64,000 nucleotides of DNA from Kordiimonas sp. SCSIO 12603 (GTDB taxonomy: Bacteria > Pseudomonadota > Alphaproteobacteria > Sphingomonadales > Kordiimonadaceae): assembly GCF_024398035.1 (NCBI RefSeq), contig NZ_CP073748.1:3401001-3465000 (forward strand). The letters are read 5' to 3'. Below the pieces are notes generated by a model. The model was not told where the DNA came from. It ran no database searches and saw only the letters and a list, made by a program, of their open reading frames with translations. The position numbers and the translations under genes are program-made. This document shows positions 35,597 through 60,366 of this stretch, piece by piece. Numbering within the stretch: the first letter of the stretch is position 1; every line of letters starts with the position of its first letter.

Positions 35597-37462
35597 TTAA
35601 TTCATACTGCGGTACATATCAATGCCCTGCTTGGCATAGCGGTTCGCGGTTTCCACATTGTTTGAAAGAATATTCAAACTCTGATTAATCTCCGCCACAG
35701 CGCCCGCGGCTGTTTGCATGCTTGTGGAGATTTCACGGGTTACACTGTTTTGTTCATCAACAGCACCAGAAATACCTGTCACACTTTCCTGCACTTCACT
35801 TACCGCACCTTTAATGGCAGTTAGACGCCCCACAACATCAGAAGAAACCGTCTGCATACGCTCGATTTCATCAGAAATCTGGTTGGTTGCATCCCCCACC
35901 TGGTTCGCCAGATTTTTCACTTCGGATGCTACAACAGCAAAGCCTTTACCTGCTTCACCGGCCCGAGCAGACTCGATCGTAGCATTCAAAGCAAGAAGGT
36001 TAATCTGAGCGGCGATATCTTCAATGAGCGTTACAATCTTATTCATCGCTTCAGCTGCATCACTAAGCTGCGTGGTGGAAGCACCAACAGATTCCGCCTC
36101 ACCAAACGTTTTATCAACGGCAACCCGCGCGTAAGAAACACTTTCAGCAATCGCCTGGAAGGAAGAACTCAATTCTTCAGCAGCTGAAGCCACTGTCTGT
36201 ACAGTCGTTTCGGTTTGCTGGGACGCTGCGACCGCTGAACCTGCCTGTGTATTAGCGTCAGAAACAGATCCTAAAATTTGCTCCATGTTTTCATCAACCA
36301 TGGCACTGATTTGTGCGCGCTCTGTCCGCGTTTTTATCATATCGGTAATATCAGTGGCAAACTTCACCACTTTGAACGGCTTACCATCAGGGTCAAAAAT
36401 CGGGTTATAAATTGCCTGCAACCACAACTCCTGCCCAGCTTTGTTAACCCGGCGGTATTCACCAGCCTGATATTCGCCACTACCTAAAGCTTGCCAGAAA
36501 TTCTTATAAGCCTCAGATTCTCGTTCTGACGCCTCAACAAAAATACGGTGATGCTGACCAATGATCTCATCAAGCGAATACCCAACAGCATTGGTGAAAT
36601 TTTCATTGGCCGTAATGATGGTGCCGTCTAATTCAAACTCAATAATCGCTTGTGCTTTATCAAGAGCTGCGAGCTTGCCTTCATAATCTGCATTTTTCAG
36701 CTTCTGCGCTGTAATATCAGAAGCAAACTTCACCACTTTTACCGGCTTGCCACTTTCATCAAGAATGGGGTTATAGGTTGCCTGCAGCCATATTTCTCTC
36801 CCACCCTTTGCATAGCGTTTGAACTCACCACTTTTGAATTCACCGCTACCCAGTGCACGCCAGAAATCAGCATATTCAGCAGTATGCTTATATTCTTCGC
36901 CTACAAACATGCTGTGATGCTGACCTTGAATTTCAGCAAGGCTGTAACCAGTCGCAGCCTGAAAGTTGTTATTGGCAGTTATGATGGTTCCATCAAGGGT
37001 AAACTCAATAACAGCCTGTGCTTTATTAAGAGCATCAATTTTCCCAGAGGAATCGATGTTGCCAGTATAATATTCAGTAACATCCGTCGCGCACTTCACA
37101 ACCTTTTCCACGCGCCCCGTAGCTGTGAATACAGGAACATAAATTGCACGAAGCCAAATCTCTCTGCCACCCTTTGCATAGCGCTTAAAAATAGCAGAAT
37201 GATCTTTGCCCGAGGCAAGGTGTTTCCAGAAGTCTTTATATTCCTGAGAAGCTTTATAATCCGCATCCACAAACATACTGTGATGCTGGCCTTTAATCTC
37301 AGCAAGGCTATAGCCCATAGCTTTTTCGAACAAAGCATTTGCAGTGAGAATTCTGCCATCCGGCGTAAATTCGATCATTGCCTGAGAAAGAGAAATCGCT
37401 TTGAGAACGGCTTCAGCTTCATTAGTTGCTGCGCCAGAACGTTTTTTCAAAATATCGAACAC
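35597..37462 (-). CDS. soluble methyl-accepting chemotaxis protein with three PAS domains
   Basis: About 621 residues from the GTG at 37462, which has GGAG seven bases upstream; another GTG 15 bases earlier lacks this. Three tandem PAS-PAC units cover about 15-135, 140-260 and 263-385. Each has the pattern ExTxDGxIxTAN, GYSLxEIxGQHHxMFV, FWxxLxSGE and [15 protein letters not shown], with a [10 protein letters not shown]-type end. Residues about 395-620 are the MCP signalling hairpin with [33 protein letters not shown] at its tip. There is no TM segment and no HAMP domain. The QHH residues recall BdlA/Aer2-like cytoplasmic sensors; heme or flavin binding cannot be judged. No other chemotaxis gene is nearby. 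Confidence 0.9.
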
Positions 37463-37802
37463 AGTCCGACTCCACACGAGTTAATACCAAAACTGAATAC
37501 AGCTCCGTTTACTCGCCCCCACGTTGCTATCTATATCGCATTATTTCGTAAACAATAGATTAACTAACCCGTGATTTCTCCTTTGCAATCAAACAATTGG
37601 TTGCAACAGAAATGATTTTGGGGACACATATAATTTGTACAGCATTGGCTTTTTTCCAATGGCCGATACGCCGCCCCGAGCGAAAAAGCGTTGTCAATTA
37701 ATCGTTTAATAACATGCCACACACGCAAATGTTTCTGTTATGTCATCCATCTAAAGATTAGTTTACTAAGCGAACATGATCTAATTTGCGGGAAAATCAG
37801 AT
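37463..37802. other. gene-free stretch between chemotaxis transducer and YHS gene
   Basis: 340 bases holding the divergent promoters. The only structure I notice is TGCAATCA-N6-TGGTTGCA near 37584-37605, an 8-bp inverted repeat with one mismatch. No open frame with a ribosome site, RNA gene or mobile element was seen. Confidence 0.4.
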
Positions 37803-38270
37803 ATGAAAAAAATACTTACATTAGTGGCTGTATTATTCAGTTTTTCACTTGCAGCTTATGCAGATGGTGAAATCAACCTATCTAAACCAGGCCTGTTTGG
37901 TGGTTCATGGAAACATGCCTTAAACGGTTATGATACAGTTGCTTACTTTACAGTGGGCAAAGCCACTAAAGGTAAAAAAGAATTCGTGGCAGAATATAAA
38001 GGCGCAAAATGGCTTTTCGTTTCTGCTGAAAACAGAGATCTTTTTAAAGCCGACCCTGAAAAATACGCTCCTCAGTATGGTGGTTATTGCGCATGGGCAG
38101 TGGCACACGGCAGCCCTGCACCTGGCAGTCCGAAAGTTTGGAAGATTGTCGATAACAAGCTTTATGTAAACTACGATAAATCAATTGGTAAAAAATGGGA
38201 GAAAGATATCCCGGGCCTTATCAAACGCGGTGATGAAAACTGGCCGGAAGTTCAAGAAAGACTTGAATAA
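37803..38270 (+). CDS. exported YHS-domain protein
   Basis: A 155-residue protein with a signal peptide (MKKILTLVAVLFSFSLAAYA). The YHS domain spans about residues 38-110: HALNGYDTVAYFTVGKATKG, then FVSAENRDLFKADPEKYAPQYGGYCAWAVAHG. These match the common secreted YHS form, where a conserved Cys and His region (YCAWAV) may bind metal. The C-terminal part (WKIVDNKLYVNYDKSIGKKWEKDI) is shared by that subfamily. The role is not established; metal or redox binding is the usual suggestion. It is a single-gene unit with its own terminator. Confidence 0.87.
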   Translation: MKKILTLVAVLFSFSLAAYADGEINLSKPGLFGGSWKHALNGYDTVAYFTVGKATKGKKEFVAEYKGAKWLFVSAENRDLFKADPEKYAPQYGGYCAWAVAHGSPAPGSPKVWKIVDNKLYVNYDKSIGKKWEKDIPGLIKRGDENWPEVQERLE

Positions 38271-38281
38271 CAGATTTAGAG

Positions 38282-38309
38282 AAAAGCGGCTTAATCAGCC
38301 GCTTTTTTT
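38282..38309 (+). terminator. intrinsic terminator of the YHS gene
   Basis: Perfect 10-bp stem AAAAGCGGCT / AGCCGCTTTT with a 5-base loop and a T7 run, 12 bases after the stop. Confidence 0.9.
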
Positions 38310-38345
38310 ATTACCTTCTCTTTTCAACATGCTATAAATCTCAGC

Positions 38346-38798
38346 ATGGAAGCCTTTATTGAAAAGATATTGAGTATCCCTTCAAAGCCTTCCTACTGGC
38401 TAGATTGGAAAACTGTAGATGAAGCCCCTCAAGAAAAGGGGAGTTACATACTTCTACTTACTTTACAGAGATCATTTGAGCTCAATCACAAAACTCTTGG
38501 CAATCACCTGTTGGAAAAAGGCCGTTATATATATGCAGGCAGTGCAAATGGTTCTGGCGGTATAAAAGCACGTGTGACACGCCACCTTTCAAAAGACAAA
38601 AAAATCCATTGGCATATTGATCACCTGACAACTCAAGCAGAAACTGTTAAATGCCTTTGCCTTCCTGGCGGCAGTGAATGCAGCCTTACTTCAACACTCT
38701 TAACTTCAGAAGCTTTCAGGGTTCCAATTAAGGGGTTTGGTAGTTCAGATTGCCGTGAGTGCCCAAGCCACCTTCTTGAAGTTGTTAACACTCAATAA
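38346..38798 (+). CDS. DUF123 / GIY-YIG-like nuclease-fold protein
   Basis: A 150-residue protein. The core GSYILLLTL, then GRYIYAGSANGSGGIKARVTRHL, and KIHWHIDHLT match the DUF123 family, a branch of the GIY-YIG superfamily sometimes found fused to or beside endonuclease III. In the classic GIY-YIG motif the two tripeptides are G-I-Y and Y-I-G; here GSY and YIYAG take these places, and Arg of IKARVTRH fits the catalytic Arg position. Cysteines near the end (CLCLPGGSEC, DCRECPSHL) are also typical. It stands alone. DNA cleavage is not shown. Confidence 0.8.
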   Translation: MEAFIEKILSIPSKPSYWLDWKTVDEAPQEKGSYILLLTLQRSFELNHKTLGNHLLEKGRYIYAGSANGSGGIKARVTRHLSKDKKIHWHIDHLTTQAETVKCLCLPGGSECSLTSTLLTSEAFRVPIKGFGSSDCRECPSHLLEVVNTQ

Positions 38799-38922
38799 TT
38801 TCAGAAATAGGTTTTCTCATATCCTGCCGAACATCAATTCAACAAACTAAACAGCTGCGCCCTACCTTTACCACATTCCCTATATTTTATGCTTTCTGCA
38901 AGAACCTCAGAAAGCCCGCTTT

Positions 38923-39672
38923 ATGAAACGATTAGTTATATTTTTTATCCTGTCGCTTTTTTACATACCCGCAGCTGCAGAACCAACAGAGCACAAAGGC
39001 ATTCTTTATACGAAATTGGCAGAAAATATATGGATGCATACCACATACCATAAGACAAAAAATTGGGGTAAAGTTCGATCAAACGGCCTGATAGTTCTGA
39101 CTAAAGAAGGCGCCCTTCTTATAGATACTGGCTGGAATAATACTCAGACCCAACATATTCTAAATTGGGTACATGAAGAACTTGAGACTACCGTGACCGC
39201 AGCCGTTTTCACTCATGCCCATGATGACAAAATGGGAGGTGTACAAGCCGTTATTGACTGGGGTGCTAAAACTTTTGCACACCCACTTTCAAATCAGTTC
39301 GCTCCGAACGAAGATTTAACGCCTGCAGAATATAATCTCCAAATTCTCTCAAATGGTGATGCTGTTGCAGCACATCCGGCCTTCGATGGCATTAAAATAT
39401 TTTATCCTGGCGGAGGGCATACTCGTGATAACATCGTAGTAGCCTTGCCAACAGCCAATATACTCTTCGGCGGCTGTCTGATAAGGCCCGAGAATTCTCA
39501 TTCTCTCGGCAACACCGCAACTGCCGATATCAAAGCCTGGTCGACTTCAGTTGAAACTATTGCAAACCGCTTTCCAAATGCTCGTCTTATAGTTCCAAGT
39601 CATGGGGATCCTTCTGATCGAAAATTACTAGATCATACAATAAAGTTAGCGCAACATACTGTTTCCAAATAA
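38923..39672 (+). CDS. subclass B1 metallo-beta-lactamase
   Basis: A 249-residue exported zinc hydrolase expected to open beta-lactam rings including carbapenems. The signal peptide is residues 1-19. All B1 ligands are present: His98, His100 and Asp102 in FTHAHDDKMGG, His166 in GGGHTRDN, Cys185 in FGGCLIRPE, and His227 in PSHGDP. Between Cys185 and the last His, SLGNTATADIKAW parallels the GNxxDAD stretch of B1 enzymes. Similarity to NDM-type enzymes is visible by memory, for example ILNW and HAHxDKMGG. It is chromosomal-looking, alone, with no integron, insertion sequence or transfer gene nearby, so it is probably intrinsic to this lineage. Confidence 0.92.
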   Translation: MKRLVIFFILSLFYIPAAAEPTEHKGILYTKLAENIWMHTTYHKTKNWGKVRSNGLIVLTKEGALLIDTGWNNTQTQHILNWVHEELETTVTAAVFTHAHDDKMGGVQAVIDWGAKTFAHPLSNQFAPNEDLTPAEYNLQILSNGDAVAAHPAFDGIKIFYPGGGHTRDNIVVALPTANILFGGCLIRPENSHSLGNTATADIKAWSTSVETIANRFPNARLIVPSHGDPSDRKLLDHTIKLAQHTVSK

Positions 39673-39696
39673 CAATCAGCCCGATTAATGCTTCAC

Positions 39697-39740
39697 AAAA
39701 AAAAGGGCTCCAATTCACAATTTTTGTGACATGGAGCCCT
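39697..39740 (-). terminator. minus-strand terminator with no known gene upstream
   Basis: Perfect 9-bp stem AGGGCTCCA (39704-39712) / TGGAGCCCT (39732-39740), whose loop itself contains TCACAA/TTGTGA pairing. On the minus strand it ends in T8; on the plus strand no U-tract follows. As no minus-strand protein gene precedes it, it may end a non-coding transcript from 39.75-40.3 kb. Confidence 0.55.
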
Positions 39741-39820
39741 ATGTTGAGTGGCTTTCTAATGGTAAACAGCCTTAGCAGCTGGGCTATTTATACCGCGTTA
39801 AAATAGCATTTATCCAATTA

Positions 39821-39840
39821 GAATTTGTACCAATTTGTAC
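39821..39840 (-). promoter_or_regulatory. 10-bp-period direct repeat (candidate regulator site 1)
   Basis: On the minus strand it reads GTACAAATTG GTACAAATTC, two units matching at 9 of 10 positions with an exact 10-bp period. It shares the TACA core and AAATT spacer with the other three sites around the kinase/regulator region. Confidence 0.45.
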
Positions 39841-39873
39841 TTACGCCAAGACAACTACGATAAATAATAGTGC

Positions 39874-39999
39874 GCTGGTGCAATACGCGGTTTGTAATTT
39901 ACGCGTACCCATTCCACGTAAAGCACCAGCTATGCGATCTGAGTTTTTGGGGTATCACTCAGTTACATTGATAATGCATTCACCGGAGTATCCTCAATG
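39874..39999. ncRNA. candidate structured RNA (three successive stem-loops)
   Basis: Outer stem GCTGGTGC (39874-39881) / GCACCAGC (39923-39930) encloses TACGCG / CGCGTA (39885-39890 / 39902-39907). Next comes CTGAGT / ACTCAG (39939-39944 / 39957-39962), then CATTGA / TCAATG (39966-39971 / 39994-39999). All arms are perfect. The strand is uncertain; the terminator at 39697-39740 favours minus. I do not recognise any known RNA family. Confidence 0.3.
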
Positions 40000-40210
40000 A
40001 ACGCATAACGGTCTTTCAGAAAACCATGCTATGGGGGCACGAATAATCGTCATGACTGTCGGGTGCTAAATTGCGGCGAATTGGGTTTAAATCTCAAGCG
40101 ATTAAATGTATTAAAATGTCTCAGTTTTTCTACAAATTTCGTAAAATTTGAATATTCGTGCCACGAACCATGGGCTTGCCGATGTTGAACTCTAACATCC
40201 CATATTTTCG

Positions 40211-40230
40211 TAATACAAATTAATACAATA
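40211..40230 (+). promoter_or_regulatory. 10-bp-period direct repeat before the hybrid kinase (candidate regulator site 2)
   Basis: TAATACAAAT TAATACAATA, two units matching at 8 of 10 positions, period exactly 10 bp, ending 113 bases before the kinase ATG. It belongs with the TACA-type arrays at 39821, 43747 and 44385. Confidence 0.5.
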
Positions 40231-40342
40231 TTTGAGTTTTGGTTACAGTTTCGTAGAGATAATGTGCAACTGATTATCAAAAATACGCAGATGATAATTG
40301 GGTACACACGGGGGATAGAGTTTAGCGTGGAGTATGAATTAA

Positions 40343-42889
40343 ATGGCTGACAGCATAACAATCCTTATATCGACACTGATTATAACGAGCCTTCTGTTTT
40401 CCATTTTATTTTATGCTGCATGGCGTACCTTTAATAAACCTCCTCATGCTCTGGTTTGGGCTGTTACGTTTCTAATTGGTTTCATTCAGTGGGGAATAAC
40501 ACTCGCAGCCTCAATACAATGGTTTAATCCGGGAGCTTATTATTGGCTCATTGTTAATTTCCTAACACTTTCCATGACCAGCAGCGGGCTATGGGGGTAT
40601 TTTCTCCGAGGCAAATTTAACATTAACCCCCTCTACCTCGTTGGTATGACAGTGGTCCTGGAGTTTGGGGTTTATGTGAGTTGGTCGATTTTCCCGCATA
40701 TCGGCGTGAGTCAAGCCATTGTTCCGTTCTATGCATCTGCCGCCGCACTCCTTACTGCCTTTGTCCTCTGTCGATCTTCAGAGAACAAAACAGCCCTTGA
40801 ATGGGGTGCTATCATTCTCTCGCTGATTATGATGATAACCGAAGCGTCTCTCGGTGTCGTTGCTGCCCTTCAGGGCGGCACGCCAGATCCAAAGCTTTCT
40901 GCGTTGTTCCAAACGCTCCTCTTTACCACCCTGCCCGTTGTATACATAGGCATGGGCGTCTTTATGGTTGGCGTCATTGCATCTGACTTGGCAAAGCAAG
41001 TGAAAGGGCATGCTAAAAAAGAAGCGGATGCATTCCAGGCGGAGGCGGAAAAAGGTTGGCATGTTCTTCAAGATGCAATTGAGGCCGTTCCTGATTTAAT
41101 TGCCATTGATAATGGCCATTTCCAGCTTATGACCTGTAACCAAGCCTTCGTAGATGTACTCGATATGCCTAAAAACCAATTGGTTGGTCGAAGCATTGCA
41201 GAAATCATGGACCAATTGCAGCCCCGCCTTGTCTACGGTGTGAACGGCAAGAAGATTGAAGAAGGTAAAGAAATCATAAAAGCCCTTTGGGAAGGCTTAC
41301 AAAATAAGACAACTATTGAATTTGAATTGAATGATGGCCGCGCCTTTCTAATGGATTGCGGTCTCCTTCGTTCAGGCGTTCACATTCTCACGGCCCGTGA
41401 TGTTACAGCTCTTAATCGTTCCACAAAAACACTGAAAAGCATTCTGCACGGCCAACCTTTCCCGGTTCTTGTGTTTGATAAGAAAAAAGAAACTGTGTTG
41501 TTCGCCAGTGAAGCTGCTGAAAAGCTTCTAGGCAGCAATATAAAAGGGACCGGGTCGGCGTTTTCCAACTTCATACAAAAACATCATTTGTTATCCAGAG
41601 AAGCAGCTTCCAAACAAGTGCTGCAAGAAACAGAATTCATGAATGCTGACAATCAAACATTCCCTGTGCTCTTTTCCACGCAGGAAAGTGTGTTTGATGG
41701 TAAAGCCGCTATTGTGATGAGCTTCATCGACTTATCGGATCAGAAACGTCTGGAAAGTCAGTTAAAGGAACAGCGTGAAGCTTTGTTCCAAAGTGAAAAA
41801 GTCAATGCTTTGGGTACACTCGTGGCGGGCGTGGCCCACGAACTTAATAACCCTCTTACAGTCATTATGACCAACACCCACATCGTGGCTGATGCAGTAA
41901 ACGACCCAGCTGTTACAGAGCGTATGCAAAAGATTGAAGATGCAGTGGAACGCTGTTCTAAAATTGTCCGATCTTTCTTGAACGTAGCCCGCAAAGATTA
42001 CGGTGATTCTGCACCATTCGATCTTGAAAAATGTATGAAGGAAGCAATTGATATTTCCGGTTATAGTTTCCGGCAAAATGACGTTGATATATCTCTTCAT
42101 ATCGCACCAGATTTACCGGCAATTAAAGGGAACTATAACCAGTTCTATCAGGTATTCTTTAACTTACTCCTGAATGCGCTACACGCTATGTCCTCTCAGG
42201 TGCGGCAGAAGCTTCTATCCATCACCTGCTCATATGATGAGGTAAACAATATTATCAAAGTGGATATCGTTGATAGTGGCCCCGGTGTACCTGCAAACAT
42301 ACGCAGTAAAGTGTTTGACCCCTTCTTTACTACAAAGGAAGTTGGCACAGGCACGGGGCTTGGGTTATTCATCGTCCGCAGCATTGTGGAGGCACATGAT
42401 GGCAAGATTGACCTTATGCCATCTCCGAAAGGGGCGCACTTCAGGCTCTATCTCCCTGCCTGGACCAAAAACTACGCTGATGCCGCGGAAACAGAGACCG
42501 AGGTAGATTGTGCTGATTGCCGCATTCTTATCGTTGATGATGAAGAAGAGATTCTGGATGCTTTAGGCCAGATACTCAAAAGCCAAAATCATGATGTAAG
42601 CTCCGCACCCAATGGTCAAAAAGCTTTAGAAGTCTTGGCAAACGAACATATCGACTTGATCATCAGTGATTTAAGAATGCCTGAAATGGACGGCCCTCAA
42701 CTTTATGAAAAAGTGTGCTCTGATTATCCGCATCTTAGCGACAAAACAGTCTTTATGACCGGTGATGAATTATCTCAATTTGCACAGCGTTTTCTATCAA
42801 CCGCGAACTGCCCTGTACTCAGCAAACCTTTCTCACCAAAGAAAGTAAAAGAACTGCTGGATACCTTTATGCAGGCGGAAGCCTCTTAA
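40343..42889 (+). CDS. seven-TM hybrid sensor histidine kinase with PAS and receiver domains
   Basis: An 848-residue membrane protein. Seven TM helices occupy residues about 5-215. Two PAS-like domains follow (about 240-345, with VPDLIAIDNGHFQLMTCN, and 350-475, with PFPVLVFDKKKETVLFAS). The HisKA box is GVAHELNNPLTV with His499. The HATPase has N box NLLLNALHAM, G1 VDSGPGVP and G2 GTGTGLGLFIV. The C-terminal receiver (about 730-848) has acidic pocket VDDEEE and phosphoacceptor Asp776 in ISDLRMPEMDG. The convergent OmpR-type regulator gene shares the last four bases. A membrane-embedded or redox-type signal is likely because there is no periplasmic domain. The true output may be the receiver or the neighbour. 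Confidence 0.92.
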   Translation: MADSITILISTLIITSLLFSILFYAAWRTFNKPPHALVWAVTFLIGFIQWGITLAASIQWFNPGAYYWLIVNFLTLSMTSSGLWGYFLRGKFNINPLYLVGMTVVLEFGVYVSWSIFPHIGVSQAIVPFYASAAALLTAFVLCRSSENKTALEWGAIILSLIMMITEASLGVVAALQGGTPDPKLSALFQTLLFTTLPVVYIGMGVFMVGVIASDLAKQVKGHAKKEADAFQAEAEKGWHVLQDAIEAVPDLIAIDNGHFQLMTCNQAFVDVLDMPKNQLVGRSIAEIMDQLQPRLVYGVNGKKIEEGKEIIKALWEGLQNKTTIEFELNDGRAFLMDCGLLRSGVHILTARDVTALNRSTKTLKSILHGQPFPVLVFDKKKETVLFASEAAEKLLGSNIKGTGSAFSNFIQKHHLLSREAASKQVLQETEFMNADNQTFPVLFSTQESVFDGKAAIVMSFIDLSDQKRLESQLKEQREALFQSEKVNALGTLVAGVAHELNNPLTVIMTNTHIVADAVNDPAVTERMQKIEDAVERCSKIVRSFLNVARKDYGDSAPFDLEKCMKEAIDISGYSFRQNDVDISLHIAPDLPAIKGNYNQFYQVFFNLLLNALHAMSSQVRQKLLSITCSYDEVNNIIKVDIVDSGPGVPANIRSKVFDPFFTTKEVGTGTGLGLFIVRSIVEAHDGKIDLMPSPKGAHFRLYLPAWTKNYADAAETETEVDCADCRILIVDDEEEILDALGQILKSQNHDVSSAPNGQKALEVLANEHIDLIISDLRMPEMDGPQLYEKVCSDYPHLSDKTVFMTGDELSQFAQRFLSTANCPVLSKPFSPKKVKELLDTFMQAEAS

Positions 42890-43605
42890 AGCGGTGAAAC
42901 CGCACAATTGAGCAAATAGCCACCACCCCAATAAGTCTTCAAAATTTGAGGCTTCTTGGGGTTTTCCTCAATCTTCTTTCGAAGCCGTGCCACATAGTTA
43001 TCGATGCTTCGTTCAAACATATTTGCCATACGCCCTTGAGTGGCTTCTAGGAGGAAATCCCTGCTCAAGACTGTTTGTGGATTTTCCATAAACACAAGAA
43101 GCAGTCTCGTCTCTCCAGAGCTTAACTGAATGGCATCACCTGCCTCCGTTGAGATTTGCTGATCAATAGCATCCAGCACAAAATCACCAAAACGATATTT
43201 CTTGGAATTCTGCTTTGGTGTTTCAACAGATATTTGCTGAGTACGACGTAATATTGCCTTCACTCTAGCAAGCAGCTCTCTAGGGTTAAATGGCTTGATC
43301 ATATAGTCGTCTGCACCGACCTCAAGACCAACAACCTTTTCTGTATCTTCAGCTTTGCCAGACAAGAACATAATCGGCAGAGAGTGGCTTTGCCTGAGCG
43401 TACGGCAAATGCTAATGCCGTCATCTTGCCCCAGAACAATATCCAAAATGACCAAATCAATATGCTCTTGTGCGATCACGTCCAGCGCCTGCTTTTCATC
43501 TGCAGCGCTCGAGACCTTAAAGCCATTGTTTCCTAAATAATAAGATAGGGATTCTCTGATCTCAGGTTCGTCATCAACGATCAGAATATGCGACACACTT
43601 GACAT
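42886..43605 (-). CDS. OmpR-family response regulator
   Basis: A 239-residue regulator. The receiver domain covers residues 1-120: acidic pair DDEPEI at 11-12, phosphoacceptor Asp55 (LVILDIVLGQDDG), Thr/Ser region MFLSGKAE and Lys in MIKPFNPREL. The winged-helix DNA-binding domain covers about 140-235 (FGDFVLDAIDQQIS, SSGETRLLLVFMENPQTVLSRDFLLEA, and SIDNYVARLRKKIEENPKKPQILKTYWGGGYLL by position). It is placed tail to tail with the hybrid kinase, sharing TTAA at the stops, an unusual order for a cognate pair. Direct repeats with a 10-bp period near the region suit OmpR-type tandem binding. Confidence 0.92.
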   Translation of the reverse strand: MSSVSHILIVDDEPEIRESLSYYLGNNGFKVSSAADEKQALDVIAQEHIDLVILDIVLGQDDGISICRTLRQSHSLPIMFLSGKAEDTEKVVGLEVGADDYMIKPFNPRELLARVKAILRRTQQISVETPKQNSKKYRFGDFVLDAIDQQISTEAGDAIQLSSGETRLLLVFMENPQTVLSRDFLLEATQGRMANMFERSIDNYVARLRKKIEENPKKPQILKTYWGGGYLLNCAVSPL

Positions 43606-43746
43606 TCAAGCTCCATCAAAATTCAGTAGTATACTCAATACAATAAGTTAATAATTTTTCTCGAACTTAATAGTTCATATGCCCAATCAAAATGCCTGCC
43701 TGATAACAAATTATAGGTGTAGACGATTTGGTTGCACAGGGGTGCA

Positions 43747-43776
43747 GTACAAATTGATACATCTTAGTACATTCTT
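43747..43776 (+). promoter_or_regulatory. three phased 10-bp repeats (candidate regulator site 3)
   Basis: GTACAAATTG ATACATCTTA GTACATTCTT places an (A/G)TACA core at 43747, 43757 and 43767, exactly one helical turn apart. It is 142 bases upstream of the regulator start (minus strand) and 119 bases upstream of the zinc-ribbon gene (plus strand). Confidence 0.55.
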
Positions 43777-43894
43777 AAATTGATATTTTACCTATAGTTT
43801 GTCAGTCCCCTGGGACAATCCTGATTAAGCAGTATTAGACGAACATGCACAAATCAATATTCTTTAACGAAATTGATAGCAGCAATTTATTTGA

Positions 43895-44380
43895 ATGGTT
43901 ATGAGGCAACAATCTATCAAATTACGGCACTGCCCATATTGTGGTGGTTGTATGGAGAGAAAGGGATACAGTGCAAGCCTTAAAGCTGTCAAAGAAATAT
44001 ACAGCTGTAAGGACTGCTGGAAATCTACCAAACTACTTTCCACTGCATCGCAAGGCTTTATTATCGGCAACAAGCTGTTCCTATTAGGCCTACTCGCTAT
44101 TCTTTGTTCAACCTCCCATGAACTTATCTCGCTCTGCGGAACTTTAGCCCTCTTCATATCAATATGGCTGACCTATGATATTTTTAAAATGCTTAGGTAT
44201 AAGTTTACGATGCCGCTACTGAAATATTTGCCAGAAGCCTCATCACCTCCAAAAGAAAACGGATACAAACGTCAGTGTAAAAACATCTTGCGAGGAGAAA
44301 ATTGGTTAAAGGGGTTGGCGCTAGGGATAAGCACCGCTTCTTTGTTTCTCTCCCCTGTCATCATATTCGCTTCCCTATAA
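43895..44380 (+). CDS. putative membrane protein with N-terminal zinc ribbon
   Basis: A 161-residue frame; the start may be the ATG at 43895 or 43901, and neither has a good ribosome site. A stop codon lies directly before 43895. Residues about 11-45 contain CPYCGGCMERKGY and YSCKDCW, two CxxC pairs 20-odd residues apart as in zinc ribbons. Two or three TM helices follow: about 57-98 (KLFLLGLLAILC and LISLCGTLALFISIWLTYDIF) and 138-160 (LKGLALGISTASLFLSPVIIF). I do not recognise the family. It lies between two phased-repeat sites in the accessory signalling region. Confidence 0.6.
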   Translation: MVMRQQSIKLRHCPYCGGCMERKGYSASLKAVKEIYSCKDCWKSTKLLSTASQGFIIGNKLFLLGLLAILCSTSHELISLCGTLALFISIWLTYDIFKMLRYKFTMPLLKYLPEASSPPKENGYKRQCKNILRGENWLKGLALGISTASLFLSPVIIFASL

Positions 44381-44384
44381 ACTT

Positions 44385-44414
44385 GATACATTCTGACACA
44401 AATTGAAACACGAC
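44385..44414 (+). promoter_or_regulatory. three phased 10-bp repeats before the small-gene cluster (candidate regulator site 4)
   Basis: GATACATTCT GACACAAATT GAAACACGAC: the pattern GAnACA recurs at exactly 10-bp steps. It lies 58 bases before the first of three small co-oriented genes, in the promoter zone. Confidence 0.55.
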
Positions 44415-44471
44415 ACCTAAGCACTCGCACTCTACCCTTACCTGCATTGATCGAAGGTTGGGGACATAAAT

Positions 44472-44840
44472 ATGTTAAAGATCACAAAACAGCGCATTAT
44501 CAAAACATGCGCAGACTGGTGCCAACAGGAAAGGCGCGGTCCATACCAGATAGATTTTTCTCAGGCTTCAACTATCTGCAAGTGCACAGTAAATGACATT
44601 AGAAAGCTCTTCACATCCTGTGAAACGCTTCAACGGTCAATTATTGCTCACGCAAATCAATCCAAGCATCATCCGCTGGTACTCGCACACGGTTTAATAG
44701 CCCGAGACCCGCAACTGCATGCTCTCAGCAAATCAGAAGTTATCAACGTGTTTCAAGATGCTATTGGTTCATGCGCACGTTCGTTTGGTACATCAAAGGC
44801 TAACAGGCAGGCCGCAGATGCTACTTCTTCCCATTTCTAA
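44472..44840 (+). CDS. small protein resembling a TetR N-terminal DNA-binding domain
   Basis: 122 residues from an ATG with GGGGAC eight bases upstream. Residues about 5-60 follow the layout of a TetR helix-turn-helix: QRIIKTCADWCQQE, then ASTICKCTVNDIRKLFTSCETLQRSIIAHA, where the last part parallels the usual recognition helix plus the lysine-free F-x-S-x-E-x-L cap. The rest (about 60) is far shorter than a TetR ligand domain. If the likeness is real, it is a truncated or free-standing DNA-binding protein. The match is by eye and weak. It is the first gene of a likely three-gene operon, with the next ATG 15 bases on. Confidence 0.6.
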   Translation: MLKITKQRIIKTCADWCQQERRGPYQIDFSQASTICKCTVNDIRKLFTSCETLQRSIIAHANQSKHHPLVLAHGLIARDPQLHALSKSEVINVFQDAIGSCARSFGTSKANRQAADATSSHF

Positions 44841-44855
44841 CCCACGAGTTACGAC

Positions 44856-45260
44856 ATGTTATATGAAAGCGTCGATGCCTATCAGAAGAAATACAGTCCA
44901 CAAAGCCTGTCAATTGAGCACCAAAAAACCAGTTTTCTGGAAGCATGTGCAATTTGGGCGGAGTCCAATGGCTTTTACAATTTAGCGGAAAAAAATGGCG
45001 CTCTTATCTGTCACGACTTTCCCGTCAGATTAAAGCTGACATTCAATAACATAACGCGTTTAAGACGTTCCGTTCTCATGAAAGCCATGAAAGAACACAA
45101 ACGTTTTCCTCGCCTAATCTTTACAGCCTATGCAGAGACAATGCTCGATCAACCAACTGGTGATCAACTGCCGCTATCCCTTGTTGTAGAAGATATTGAA
45201 AAAGATCGGCTACTCAAGCTCTCCGCAACTGCAATCTTGCGAGCAATACCTCAGCTTTAG
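44856..45260 (+). CDS. protein of unknown function in small signalling cluster
   Basis: 134 residues, soluble, no signal peptide or TM helix. It begins MLYESVDAYQKKYSPQSLSIEH, with a central ACAIWAESNGFYNLAEKNGALICHDFPV and a C-terminal LSLVVEDIEKDRLLKLSATAILRAI. I do not recognise the fold; several short alternating strands and helices suggest a compact alpha/beta domain. It starts 15 bases after the TetR-like gene and ends 43 bases before the degenerate receiver gene, so the three are probably one transcript. A regulatory partner role is a guess from context. Confidence 0.6.
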   Translation: MLYESVDAYQKKYSPQSLSIEHQKTSFLEACAIWAESNGFYNLAEKNGALICHDFPVRLKLTFNNITRLRRSVLMKAMKEHKRFPRLIFTAYAETMLDQPTGDQLPLSLVVEDIEKDRLLKLSATAILRAIPQL

Positions 45261-45303
45261 CCTGTTACAACATTATTCATTTATCAGTTTTTAGGTTAAT
45301 CAA

Positions 45304-45729
45304 ATGATTCCTGATCATTTACAGTTTATGTTGTCATCCTGGGATTTATCAGAATTTACCGAGTGGAAATTCTTGATGCTTTCTCTCGAAGACAATACAC
45401 CTCACGCAACACCTATCAGTGTTATCAAAAACAGCGCTTATTTTTATTTACACACATGTTCCGGGGAACTTTGTTACCGCTTATGCACCGAACGCGACTA
45501 TAAGGCGGTTTACCTGATCACCAATAAAGTGGGGCAAAACGAACTGGAATTTATCCTTAAGGTACGTGCTGTTGGTGAACCACACTGCAATATCCCAATA
45601 ATCCTTATCAGTCCGCCTGTATCAAAAACCATTCGGCACGAGCTAGAGGATTGCGGCATCAACGCGGTACTTGAAGCACCTTTTTCAGATAAACAGCTTA
45701 TTAAACAAACCCTGTCTCTCTGCTCTTAA
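45304..45729 (+). CDS. degenerate receiver-like (pseudo-receiver) protein
   Basis: 141 residues. From about residue 20 the layout follows a CheY-type receiver. Strand 1 with acidic residues is FLMLSLEDN, strand 3 is YKAVYLITNKVGQNE, strand 4 is IPIILISPP, and the end is CGINAVLEAPFSDKQLIKQTLSL, parallel to the G-A-x-x-y-l-x-K-P-F-x-x-x-x-L-x-x-x-i segment of receivers. The phosphoacceptor Asp at the end of strand 3 is replaced (ITN), and the conserved Lys before Pro-Phe is Ala (APF). It should not be phosphorylated in the normal way, so it may act by binding only. It is the last gene of the three-gene cluster near the hybrid kinase. Confidence 0.65.
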   Translation: MIPDHLQFMLSSWDLSEFTEWKFLMLSLEDNTPHATPISVIKNSAYFYLHTCSGELCYRLCTERDYKAVYLITNKVGQNELEFILKVRAVGEPHCNIPIILISPPVSKTIRHELEDCGINAVLEAPFSDKQLIKQTLSLCS

Positions 45730-45733
45730 AAGC

Positions 45734-45763
45734 AAAAAAGCCCAGTGAATATTCACTGGGCTT
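45734..45763 (-). terminator. intrinsic terminator of the ABC exporter operon
   Basis: A perfect 26-bp palindrome centred on AATATT (stem AGCCCAGTGAA / TTCACTGGGCT), followed on the minus strand by T6, 14 bases after the permease stop. The plus-strand side, after the pseudo-receiver gene, has almost no U-tract. Confidence 0.85.
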
Positions 45764-45776
45764 AATCGTCTAATAG

Positions 45777-48254
45777 TTAACCGGCGAGTAAGTCTCGGAC
45801 AGAAACTTTCAAGCTCTGCCGACAGGCCAGATAACCAATCAAGCAAACGGTGCTCACCATCAGGCTGATAGTGCCAATTACCCAAATCGGATCAGGGTTA
45901 TAGAAAAGCCCAAACTGATCCTCATAAATCAGAATACCAGCCATCCATGTACCAACAATGGCACCAGCCGCTGCGATAAGGGCTGTTACACCCCAATCAT
46001 AGAAATTCAGCCACAGGCAATCTTTTTCCTTCAAACCCATACTCATAAGAAGGCCATTTTTCTGCTGATCATCTGCCTTAAAACCGCTCACAGAAGCTGC
46101 AACAACAAACAGTGAAAGCACCAGCACCATAGCCGCATAACCTGATGTTACTTTGGTCACGATACCCAGTGTTTTCTCAAGACGTTGCATCATTTCCTTA
46201 AGCGGAAGAAGAGCAAGTGTTGGGTTTGCTTCCCAAAGGCTTGCAAGTTGACCCCATGCCTGTTCCGGCAGGTTCATACTTCCCATATAATAAGTATCTG
46301 CCTTGATCTGTTCTCTTGCTGAAATTGGTACCTGGAACCAAAAGGTGATGAAGCTACCACCTGGTTTATAAGCATGGCTTGCCACTAGAGTGAAAGTATA
46401 TGTTTCACCACCAATCTGGTACGTCAACTTATCACCAAATTTGAAACCCATATCGGTCATCACTTCAGGTTCAGCGGAAATTTGTTGCCAATCTTCTGTG
46501 CCAACTTCCCAGCGATTACCATCAATATGGCGATTATTTTCAGGAATTTCATCGGCCCAGCTCAGTCGAATAGGTTCCTGCAGTGTCGCCAGTGAATCGC
46601 TCGGCTTCTTCATGTAATCATTGAGAAGCACACCGTTCACCTGCACAAGTTTGGCTGACAAAAACGGTCTAAGTTGTTTGACCGTACTGCCGGTTTTTTC
46701 AGACCAATCGTGAATAGCCCCCACATGCTTTTCCTGCGCTTCTGAGATAATCAAATTACCTTCTTCCACACGGCTATTGGTTTCGATCATTGCACTGAAA
46801 TCACGCATAAGCATTAAGGAAAACAGTAACAGCAAACCACATAGGCCAAGCCCCAGAATCTGTGCAGACTTGGAGAAAATACGCTGCCTCATCATGAAGA
46901 AAGCAAATGGCAACAAACCTGCTCTCCGGCTTCCCCAATAATCACCCAGACGAAGAACAAGCCAACTTAGGAATGTCATGAATATGAGCGCAACAGCCAC
47001 CGCCCCCAGTGTCATGGCAGTTAGAAGCATATTATCTGAATATACCGCAGCCAAAAGTGTGGCAGACGCCAAACCCCAGAAAAGCCGCTGTAACAGATAC
47101 CGGTTTTCTGGTGCTTTCCTAATCAACGAAAGCACAGAAGAACCACGTAACTGATTAAATGTGGGTATTTGAAGGGCCAGCAACAGGATAAAGACAAGCG
47201 CCACCGTTTTAATAATTGCCGCAGGGTAAAGACCACCTGACAATCCCGGGAAATAAGCTTGCAGTTCGGCAACAATCAAATCCTGAGCCACAGCTGCGAA
47301 AACACATGCGCCTACAGTAGAAAGAGCAAATCCTGTAAACCACTGCCCGCCTGCCATAGCCATGCTTTTTCCAAGCGGCGTACCAAAACTGGTATAAACT
47401 GCAATACGGTACCGCATGTTTGCAAGCCACCTGCGGTTCGTCATGTCAATAGCGACAGCCGCCATGAAAAAAAGAATAACTGAAGCAAGCCCAAGGAAAT
47501 TTTCCGTGCGGCGCCAAAACCCTGAGAGCGGGTGTTGGCCACCATACTTCTTTAAAACAGTTGCCCCCGGCAATGCATCCTTAGCCCACGTTTCAATAGT
47601 TTCTGCCTGTGCCTCATCTGCCATCATCATATAGCGAAACCGCTGACCACTACTGGCAAGAGCACCCGATGCCAGGCTATCCATATGCACCATAGCCCGA
47701 AGGTCCACGCTGTGCCCCTCCATAAGCCGATCAGGTTCATGGAATAAAATCTGCGCTACCTGAAGATTTTCGCCACCAATCTTAATCTGATCACCAACAC
47801 CAGCACCAAGTTTTGTTGCCAACCGTGACCCGAGCCAAATATCCCCAATATCGGGACCACGCTTTGCAGGCATCTGATCAGCACCCGGTGATACACCGAT
47901 CATCAATTGCCCCTGAATTGGATAGGCACTATCCACAAGTTTCAACTGAACACGTTCCCACCGCTTTTCAAAACTCAGCGTAATTTTCAGTAGCTCAGAC
48001 TTCGCAAGCCCCTGCGTTTCACTTCGCAACGTTTGAAGTGCTCTATCTTCCAGTGGCACATGGCTTTCTACAACCACATCAGAGCCCAGCATCTGATCCA
48101 AGTTCGCCTTCAGATAATTTTGGATAGAGGCACTCACAAGTGTAAGAGTCAGAAGGAAAAACAAAAGCGCAGTTTGCGTCAGCACCGTAATCCTGCCGTC
48201 CGCAGCCTTTAGGTCATGCCGGGCGTTATCCCATATCAATTTCACCGTGCTCAT
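45777..48254 (-). CDS. FtsX-like ABC exporter permease (YbbP type)
   Basis: An 825-residue inner-membrane protein with an N-terminal TM (about 25-45), a large periplasmic domain (about 45-260), then a cluster of TM helices, a second periplasmic domain and C-terminal TM helices. It has two FtsX/MacB-type permease domains, as in YbbP, expected near 260-400 and 690-825. KADDQQKNGLLMSMGLKEKDC in the C-terminal unit is the usual cytoplasmic coupling-loop pattern. Start MSTVKLIWDNARHDL. It overlaps the ATPase gene by four bases. YbbAP-type systems are thought to move lipophilic molecules out of the membrane; the cargo is unknown. Confidence 0.85.
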   Translation of the reverse strand: MSTVKLIWDNARHDLKAADGRITVLTQTALLFFLLTLTLVSASIQNYLKANLDQMLGSDVVVESHVPLEDRALQTLRSETQGLAKSELLKITLSFEKRWERVQLKLVDSAYPIQGQLMIGVSPGADQMPAKRGPDIGDIWLGSRLATKLGAGVGDQIKIGGENLQVAQILFHEPDRLMEGHSVDLRAMVHMDSLASGALASSGQRFRYMMMADEAQAETIETWAKDALPGATVLKKYGGQHPLSGFWRRTENFLGLASVILFFMAAVAIDMTNRRWLANMRYRIAVYTSFGTPLGKSMAMAGGQWFTGFALSTVGACVFAAVAQDLIVAELQAYFPGLSGGLYPAAIIKTVALVFILLLALQIPTFNQLRGSSVLSLIRKAPENRYLLQRLFWGLASATLLAAVYSDNMLLTAMTLGAVAVALIFMTFLSWLVLRLGDYWGSRRAGLLPFAFFMMRQRIFSKSAQILGLGLCGLLLLFSLMLMRDFSAMIETNSRVEEGNLIISEAQEKHVGAIHDWSEKTGSTVKQLRPFLSAKLVQVNGVLLNDYMKKPSDSLATLQEPIRLSWADEIPENNRHIDGNRWEVGTEDWQQISAEPEVMTDMGFKFGDKLTYQIGGETYTFTLVASHAYKPGGSFITFWFQVPISAREQIKADTYYMGSMNLPEQAWGQLASLWEANPTLALLPLKEMMQRLEKTLGIVTKVTSGYAAMVLVLSLFVVAASVSGFKADDQQKNGLLMSMGLKEKDCLWLNFYDWGVTALIAAAGAIVGTWMAGILIYEDQFGLFYNPDPIWVIGTISLMVSTVCLIGYLACRQSLKVSVRDLLAG

Positions 48255-60339: not shown

Positions 60340-60366
60340 ACTTGTATATACAAGTTCATACAAGTT
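60340..60366. promoter_or_regulatory. HutC-type operator between hutF and hutI
   Basis: ACTTGTATATACAAGT (60340-60355) is a perfect 16-bp palindrome, close to the recalled HutC consensus CTTGTATxTACAAG. A third half-site TACAAGTT follows at 60359-60366. It lies 11 bases above the hutF start and 62 bases before hutI, so one bound repressor could cover both promoters. Confidence 0.8.

Follow-up and report, generated by a model that had tools for sequence, protein, structure and literature searches.

Phased RNTACA arrays around a hybrid kinase and an OmpR-class regulator gene, and two candidate RNAs in front of the kinase

The locus and its five arrays

The window, i.e. the whole 64-kb stretch of DNA analysed here (G000:C1:3401001-3465000), is part of a one-contig genome of 3.85 Mb. 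The features of the locus under study are collected in Table 1. The kinase shows the layout of a hybrid histidine kinase, with a hydrophobic N-terminal region, PAS domains, HisKA (PF00512), HATPase (PF02518) and a C-terminal receiver (PF00072); an HPt domain was not matched within it by Pfam. The idea that its sensor had been swapped was dropped, since homology (28% over 239 aa) links the N-terminal regions. The regulator carries a receiver (PF00072, 1.3e-29) and a winged-helix Trans_reg_C domain (PF00486, 3.4e-20) and thus falls into the OmpR/PhoB class. Its best NCBIfam model is OmpR (NF007005), yet the score of 229.4 bits lies under the equivalog cut-off of 331, and by this curated score it is no OmpR orthologue. 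The pair also differs from EnvZ/OmpR in its kinase, which is a hybrid with PAS domains and a receiver while EnvZ is non-hybrid, and in the convergent orientation of the two genes, which form no operon as ompR-envZ does.

The zinc-ribbon label of the gene beyond the regulator is based on CxxC pairs, with Pfam zinc-ribbon matches staying under the cut-off. None of the three small genes that follow has a significant Pfam match. The last of them looks like a degenerate receiver, its match to the LetS model (E 1e-4) being far under the LetS cut-off; the 134-aa gene is present in 2 of 29 family genomes, and single-sequence AlphaFold models of the 122-aa and 141-aa products are of low confidence (pLDDT 45 and 54). 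On the other side of the locus, positions 38923-39672 encode a chromosomal subclass B1 metallo-beta-lactamase (NF033088, 246.8 bits, cut-off 200).

Table 1. Coordinates of genes, arrays and candidate RNA features, numbered from the first base of the window
Feature	Position	Strand	Basis and remarks
Candidate small RNA RNA1, ~85 nt	39697-39780	-	Intrinsic terminator, stem GGGCTCC/GGAGCCC followed by T8
Candidate -10 TATAAA, leftward	39787-39792	-	49 bp from A1 start; invariant in G011
Array A1	39822-39841	-	Two units, AGTACAAATT GGTACAAATT; 18.2 bits, other-species matrix
Candidate structured RNA RNA2, 226-nt block	39855-40080	-	Conservation and fold
Array A2	40103-40122	-	GAGACATTTT AATACATTTA; 14.6 bits, other-species matrix
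Array A3, before the kinase	40212-40231, extended to 40247	+	AATACAAATT AATACAATAT; 26.5 bits
Hybrid histidine kinase, 848 aa	40343-42889	+	Pfam matches
OmpR/PhoB-class response regulator, 239 aa	42886-43605	-	Pfam, NCBIfam
Array A4, regulator/zinc-ribbon gene spacer	43746-43775	+	Three units, AGTACAAATT GATACATCTT AGTACATTCT
Probable zinc-ribbon membrane protein, 161 aa	43895-44380	+	CxxC pairs
Array A5, before the three-gene cluster	44385-44414	+	Three units, GATACATTCT GACACAAATT GAAACACGAC; 20.4 bits
Three small genes, 122 / 134 / 141 aa	44472-45729	+	Open reading frames; last one receiver-like

Reading of the spacers reveals arrays of RNTACA units on an exact 10-bp period. A preliminary description of this DNA had reported phased TACA-type repeats at four places, and such arrays do exist at all four; one had been placed exactly (A5) and the other three were off by one base. 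The description had missed a fifth array, A2, and had passed over the strands of the arrays and the two of them that face no protein gene. A1 and A2 point at RNA1 and RNA2, respectively, A3 at the kinase gene, A4 at the zinc-ribbon gene and A5 at the three-gene cluster. In A3 the 10-bp register reads AATACA, AATACA, (TTGAGT) and then an in-phase GTTACA at 40242.

In order to avoid circularity, a 20-bp matrix was built from 12 sites adjoining related regulators of other species, with this genome and its sister genome G011 left out. The six top positions of this matrix in the window all fall inside the five arrays (26.5, 20.4, 18.2, 17.7, 15.2 and 14.6 bits), and the next-best position, at 60347, reaches 11.4 bits. 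Within 1,050 bp, six matches of at least 10 bits are seen, as against 0.11 expected from an AT-rich null drawn from the same spacers. The best score per 64 kb of this null has a median of 15.2, a 95th percentile of 20.3 and a highest value of 26.0 in 200 runs, and order-3 Markov sequence of the same length has a 90th percentile of 15.0. Hence A3 at 40212 alone exceeds every null run, while single scores of 14.6-18.2 bits are ordinary for 64 kb of such sequence and the weaker arrays are unremarkable one by one. The case for the arrays rests on their clustering and their conservation.

Outside the window, matrix scores refer to fetched loci, and the genome-wide scans were made with IUPAC patterns. 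All four copies of the exact motif RNTACANNTNRNTACA in the window fall at 39826-43771, whereas with up to one mismatch there is no excess (6 places vs 3.58 expected from shuffles). Across the genome the exact two-unit pattern is found nine times, against six for its reversed control; five of the nine lie outside the window and four in the cluster, so that the excess is local. When up to two mismatches are allowed, the two-unit pattern yields 175 matches against 126 for the reversed control and the three-unit pattern 11 against 15. The three-unit pattern, whose sole exact match in the genome is A4, was discarded as a regulon finder, being of no help. The preliminary description had named commonness of the motif elsewhere in the genome as one point that would speak against such sites. 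As far as this check was run, the strong sites do cluster at the locus, but looser versions show a modest genome-wide excess or none.

The sister genome G011 carries the same locus with a regulator 98% identical to ours; its kinase gene is split over two contigs, with arrays on both (L040, L089). A1 differs there in its first base alone, and A5 has the same letters. A2 and A3 each keep 20 of 20 bases, as against 64 of 89 between them; the last unit of the extended A3 is GTGACA in place of GTTACA, the first two units being identical. In A4, 29 of 30 bases are kept, in its spacer 261 of 287. Places that match RATACANNYTRATACA with at most one mismatch number twelve in each of the two genomes. 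Those recurring in both are the five places of A2-A5 and a beta-barrel site described below, plus two others, one of which sits in a stretch that is 96% identical overall.

These data bear on the simplest alternative, namely that the repeats are chance products of AT-rich spacers. It would account for the frequency of the loose patterns and for single scores of 15-18 bits, but it is at odds with the six matches, by a matrix from other species, where 0.11 are expected at equal base composition, and with site letters that are kept in G011 while the flanks differ. We regard a chance origin as very improbable.

Arrays beside related regulators

Among the 19 genus genomes searched, ten (this one included) encode a regulator at least 50% identical to the one studied here, and the remaining nine have best matches of 31-42% identity. 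Several of the 19 are incomplete (76-83%), among them three of the nine regulator-less ones at 76-80%. Within loci of up to 20 kb, nine of the ten genomes have arrays upstream of at least one of the kinase and regulator genes. Seven of these nine supplied training sites for the matrix, and the independent ones are this genome and G011. In the tenth, G009 (regulator 54% identical), no array reaches 13 bits anywhere in the 20-kb locus. Elsewhere in G009, a three-unit array (L088:1491-1520; G009:C20:41846) lies upstream of a PF02277 phosphoribosyltransferase gene.

Of the genus genomes, 9 of the 10 that have the regulator contain the exact motif RATACANNYTRATACA, as against 0 of the 9 that lack it (Fisher p 1.2e-4), and 15 of its 21 exact matches adjoin this regulator type, its paralogue or its kinase. 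With the reversed control the count is eight in the ten regulator genomes and three in the nine others. For ten family genomes of other genera, three matches in two genomes compare with seven for the control.

In other species, same-motif arrays adjoin regulators or kinases whose regulators are 41-54% identical to ours. The kinase-upstream regions of G024, G025 and G026 exhibit three exact 10-bp units plus a GAGACA or GCGACA 10-11 bp further out, and the regulator genes of five relatives are preceded by four in-phase units like GATACA-RCGACA-nnnACA-nGGCAA or near to it. Paralogous regulators (41 and 45% identical, within an overall range of 41-47%) are accompanied by the same motif. Within the C-terminal domain, the segment R-S-x-D-N...R-x-R-K-K, which we take to be the recognition helix, is invariant in all 11 aligned regulators, paralogues included. 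Beyond the genus, regulators 35-47% identical have no array of 13 bits or more at the gene in G003 and G004, and at 17 bits none was found at the gene in 80 named loci except for matches in L145, which is a contig of G018, and in L164, where the match lies 3.9 kb from the regulator gene.

The strong arrays of relatives point away from kinase and regulator genes; A3 points at the kinase. In G018, the array adjoining the regulator faces a gene for a receiver protein, behind which comes one for a zinc-ribbon-like membrane protein. The latter is distantly related (E 8e-6) to its counterpart in our locus, and therefore the layout of regulator, array and zinc-ribbon gene is probably older than this species.

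The surroundings of the related regulators offer some further observations. In G015, G024, G025 and G026 this regulator type shares a 20-kb stretch with genes of two-partner secretion transporters of the ShlB/FhaC type, located at L051:3487-5349 (G015), L047:11546-19901 (G024), L049:10328-19901 (G025) and L045:10610-18536 (G026). The L045 transporter is accompanied by a 2042-aa TPS-domain exoprotein, and long open reading frames adjoin those of L047 and L049. Further clusters of G025 and G026 (L054, L055 and L056) combine regulators 44-46% identical with tandem kinase-like genes and open reading frames of 1882-2034 aa; no array above 13.6 bits was found in them.

The preliminary description had assigned the phased direct repeats to the adjacent OmpR-class regulator. 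This assignment holds up as the best reading, and we consider it likely that all five arrays are binding sites of this protein. It is supported by the adjacency of arrays to regulator or kinase in nine of ten genomes together with the distribution of the exact motif, by the recovery of precisely these sites with a matrix built on other species, and by site letters kept in G011 while spacers change. It is weakened by the array-free locus of G009, by the control pattern, which is likewise somewhat more frequent in the regulator genomes, by the incompleteness of several genus genomes, by the orientation of the strong arrays in relatives, by candidate -10 hexamers that are unremarkable except at A4, and by the array-free regulators outside the genus.

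Some other DNA-binding protein, for instance another OmpR-class regulator of this genome, might instead occupy the arrays and control the locus. The genome holds 40 matches to the regulator, not all of which are full regulators, and the shared motif of paralogues only 41-47% identical in other species suggests a specificity common to the subfamily. Yet the exact matches track the close homologue, while distant OmpR-class matches occur in 29 of 29 genomes, and the next-best relative within this genome is 38% identical. A different occupant of the arrays appears unlikely.

The preliminary description had further stated that the arrays occur only around the accessory signalling genes. This is true inside the window; elsewhere in the genome there is at least one further good array, at G000:C1:2735769 (24.4 bits), upstream of a gene for a 206-aa outer-membrane beta-barrel protein (PF13505), with a further GATACA 11 bp out. 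The 15 letters of this site, GATACAATTTAATAC, are unchanged in G011, where the leader is otherwise 61% identical. In 28 other loci of beta-barrel homologues no array of at least 13 bits was found. A weak second candidate outside the locus is a 13.6-bit site at G000:C1:3161710 (L005:1501), between an mnmA-type gene and an unnamed open reading frame of at least 465 aa that has no Pfam match; it is kept in G011 but for single letters. Separately, we observed GCAACAnnnTTGTACATAGTGTTGCA in four near-identical copies, arranged as two opposed pairs with 0.6-1.0 kb between partners (G000:C1:165069-166088 and 918463-919069), which are perhaps the ends of a mobile element.

Two candidate RNAs in front of the kinase gene

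Leftward of A1 follow the conserved TATAAA, a 28-nt stretch invariant in G011 and a terminator whose T-run is read from the minus strand. This order suggests that A1 and the terminator mark a small RNA, RNA1, as a prediction from sequence. The window contains 17 terminator-like hairpins of -12 kcal/mol or lower, eight of them in spacers. The RNA1 terminator is the strongest of these eight (-19.3 kcal/mol by the window-scan criterion) and the sole one with no gene ending on its own strand within 40 bp, the nearest such end being 3.1 kb away; the other seven lie 13-37 bp from such an end, in a gene list that covers genes of 120 aa and more. Behind 30 arrays, strong terminators were found at A1 (-24.2 kcal/mol, 101-138 nt from the array start) and its G011 counterpart (-21.1 kcal/mol) alone, the next reaching -14.3 kcal/mol. 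The fold of 39690-39781 has a z-score of -3.81.

RNA1 has no Rfam match; a search of 37000-46000 at E<=1 returned a sub-threshold L20 leader alone (38197-38316). Seed-complement matches with up to three mismatches number 35, RNA1 itself included, vs 32 for the control, and pairing with six leaders beat shuffles at the 5% level in 0 of 6 cases, the best being the lactamase gene at 11%.

The metallo-beta-lactamase stop codon (39672) lies ~25 bp before the leftward terminator of RNA1. It is possible, though less likely than not, that A1 and this terminator belong to no RNA gene and that the hairpin is the tail of the lactamase gene. The distance to the stop codon resembles that of the seven other spacer terminators behind their genes, and RNA1 is 86.7% identical in G011 (72 of 83 bases), hardly above the 83.8% of the neighbouring stretch. 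A generic scan of 39600-40400 listed a single plus-strand match of sigma-70 type and a single terminator-like site on the minus strand (40024-40042, inside RNA2), but neither the RNA1 hairpin nor a minus-strand promoter. What argues against a lactamase tail is the strand of the T-run, since the plus-strand stem runs into TATGTTG, further the distance to the nearest listed minus-strand gene end, and the conserved TATAAA and invariant stretch that separate array and terminator.

The promoter signals were compared with the spacer background, using assumed -10 weights. A -10-like hexamer lies 44-50 bp from the array start at A1, A3, A4 and A5 and is absent at A2 and the beta-barrel site. The background fraction at least as good is 0.19 at A1, 0.14 at A3, 0.24 at A5, 0.75 at A2 and 0.86 at the barrel site; at A4, where TATAGT stands 47 bp from the array start, it is 0.012. 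The spacing is thus unremarkable except at A4 and suggestive only.

The second candidate, RNA2, occupies the block between A1 and A2. This block is 94.7% identical in G011 (214 of 226), while its flanks are 83.8% and 90.9% identical and the sequence past A2 71.9%. On the minus strand its fold has z-scores of -3.2 and -4.1 by two shuffling methods, and the G011 block gives -3.8; the plus-strand values are -0.5 and -1.8. The core helices (columns 54-207) contain five changes, all of which keep the pairs on the minus strand, whereas three pairs of the outermost two helices are broken in G011; the consensus fold swaps these for a small helix with one two-sided change. From two sequences, for which covariation controls cannot discriminate, the pair-keeping changes are modest evidence for an RNA fold. 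No open reading frame fills the block. It holds short ones of 20-42 codons, and a plus-strand frame of 33 codons from 39870 is identical in both genomes, so that the conservation may instead be that of coding sequence.

A search of 99 genomes of the order recovered the stretch 39690-40130 in 2 of them. An RNA gene was also considered for the long spacers beside paralogous regulators of G023-G025 and rejected: the four-row alignment shows, besides the array, conserved sequence in the direction of the next gene but no convincing RNA gene, and its G016 row hardly aligns past the array.

A proposed circuit and its relation to known OmpR systems

In the circuit that we propose, the hybrid kinase would phosphorylate the regulator, either directly or via an HPt protein. 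At least two phosphorylated molecules would then bind head to tail on one helix face, one per RNTACA unit, as a dimer or a longer chain. The regulator would thereby control its own kinase via A3, the regulator/zinc-ribbon spacer via A4, the three-gene cluster via A5 and, away from the locus, the outer-membrane beta-barrel gene. With less certainty, A1 and A2 would control RNA1 and RNA2, two unannotated leftward RNAs. If the candidate -10 hexamers are right, the regulator would sit near -60 to -40. Activation is a guess; repression is possible as well, e.g., of the divergent regulator gene at A4.

In E. coli, phased OmpR boxes and OmpR-controlled small RNAs are already established (PMC5438342, PMC12692685). 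The E. coli OmpR repeat, given in the former as KWWGTTACAT and GTTACATTTTGTTACAT, resembles the arrays in being a direct repeat of equal period and nearly the same letters, as in the boxes of ompF/ompC and the regulon, but the consensus here has GAT, not GTT. Common to both systems (PMC5438342) are the regulator class and a beta-barrel outer-membrane gene among the candidate targets. For M. tuberculosis PhoP and other tandem-dimer sites of the OmpR/PhoB family, dimers are described as binding head to tail on direct repeats of strict spacing (PMC4832192). The spacing is similarly strict in our arrays, which have the geometry and conservation expected of such sites, whereas the half-site differs.

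RNA1 as predicted resembles OmrA (88 nt), OmrB (82 nt) and MicF under OmpR, as described in PMC12692685, in its similar length, its intrinsic terminator and a regulator box just upstream. It differs from them in having no Rfam match or predicted target, in lying beside its own regulator system and in its occurrence in 2 of 99 genomes. The layout as a whole thus recalls OmpR with its boxes, porins and OmrA/B-MicF RNAs, but with a hybrid kinase. A literature search found no paper apparently on this system, which is a weak negative.

If this likeness holds, the system works like a familiar one, and any surprise would come from the two RNA candidates. Tentatively, and with somewhat less than even confidence, we propose an OmpR-class system, by curated score other than EnvZ/OmpR, that has its own regulated RNA pair before the kinase gene, one of ~85 nt and terminator-ended, the other of ~220 nt and highly structured, both without an Rfam match. 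Such a system would parallel the OmpR-OmrA/B-MicF loop but would have been assembled independently and with a hybrid kinase.

From a biological point of view, the arrays supply a two-component subfamily whose kinase is a hybrid and whose outputs are uncharacterised with a concrete candidate for its binding code and the core of its regulon. They also offer a comparative case in which, within one genus, paralogous regulators share the same recognition-helix residues and the same site but have different neighbours. If the two RNAs are real, the locus would represent a separately assembled analogue of the enterobacterial layout of OmpR box, porin and small RNA.
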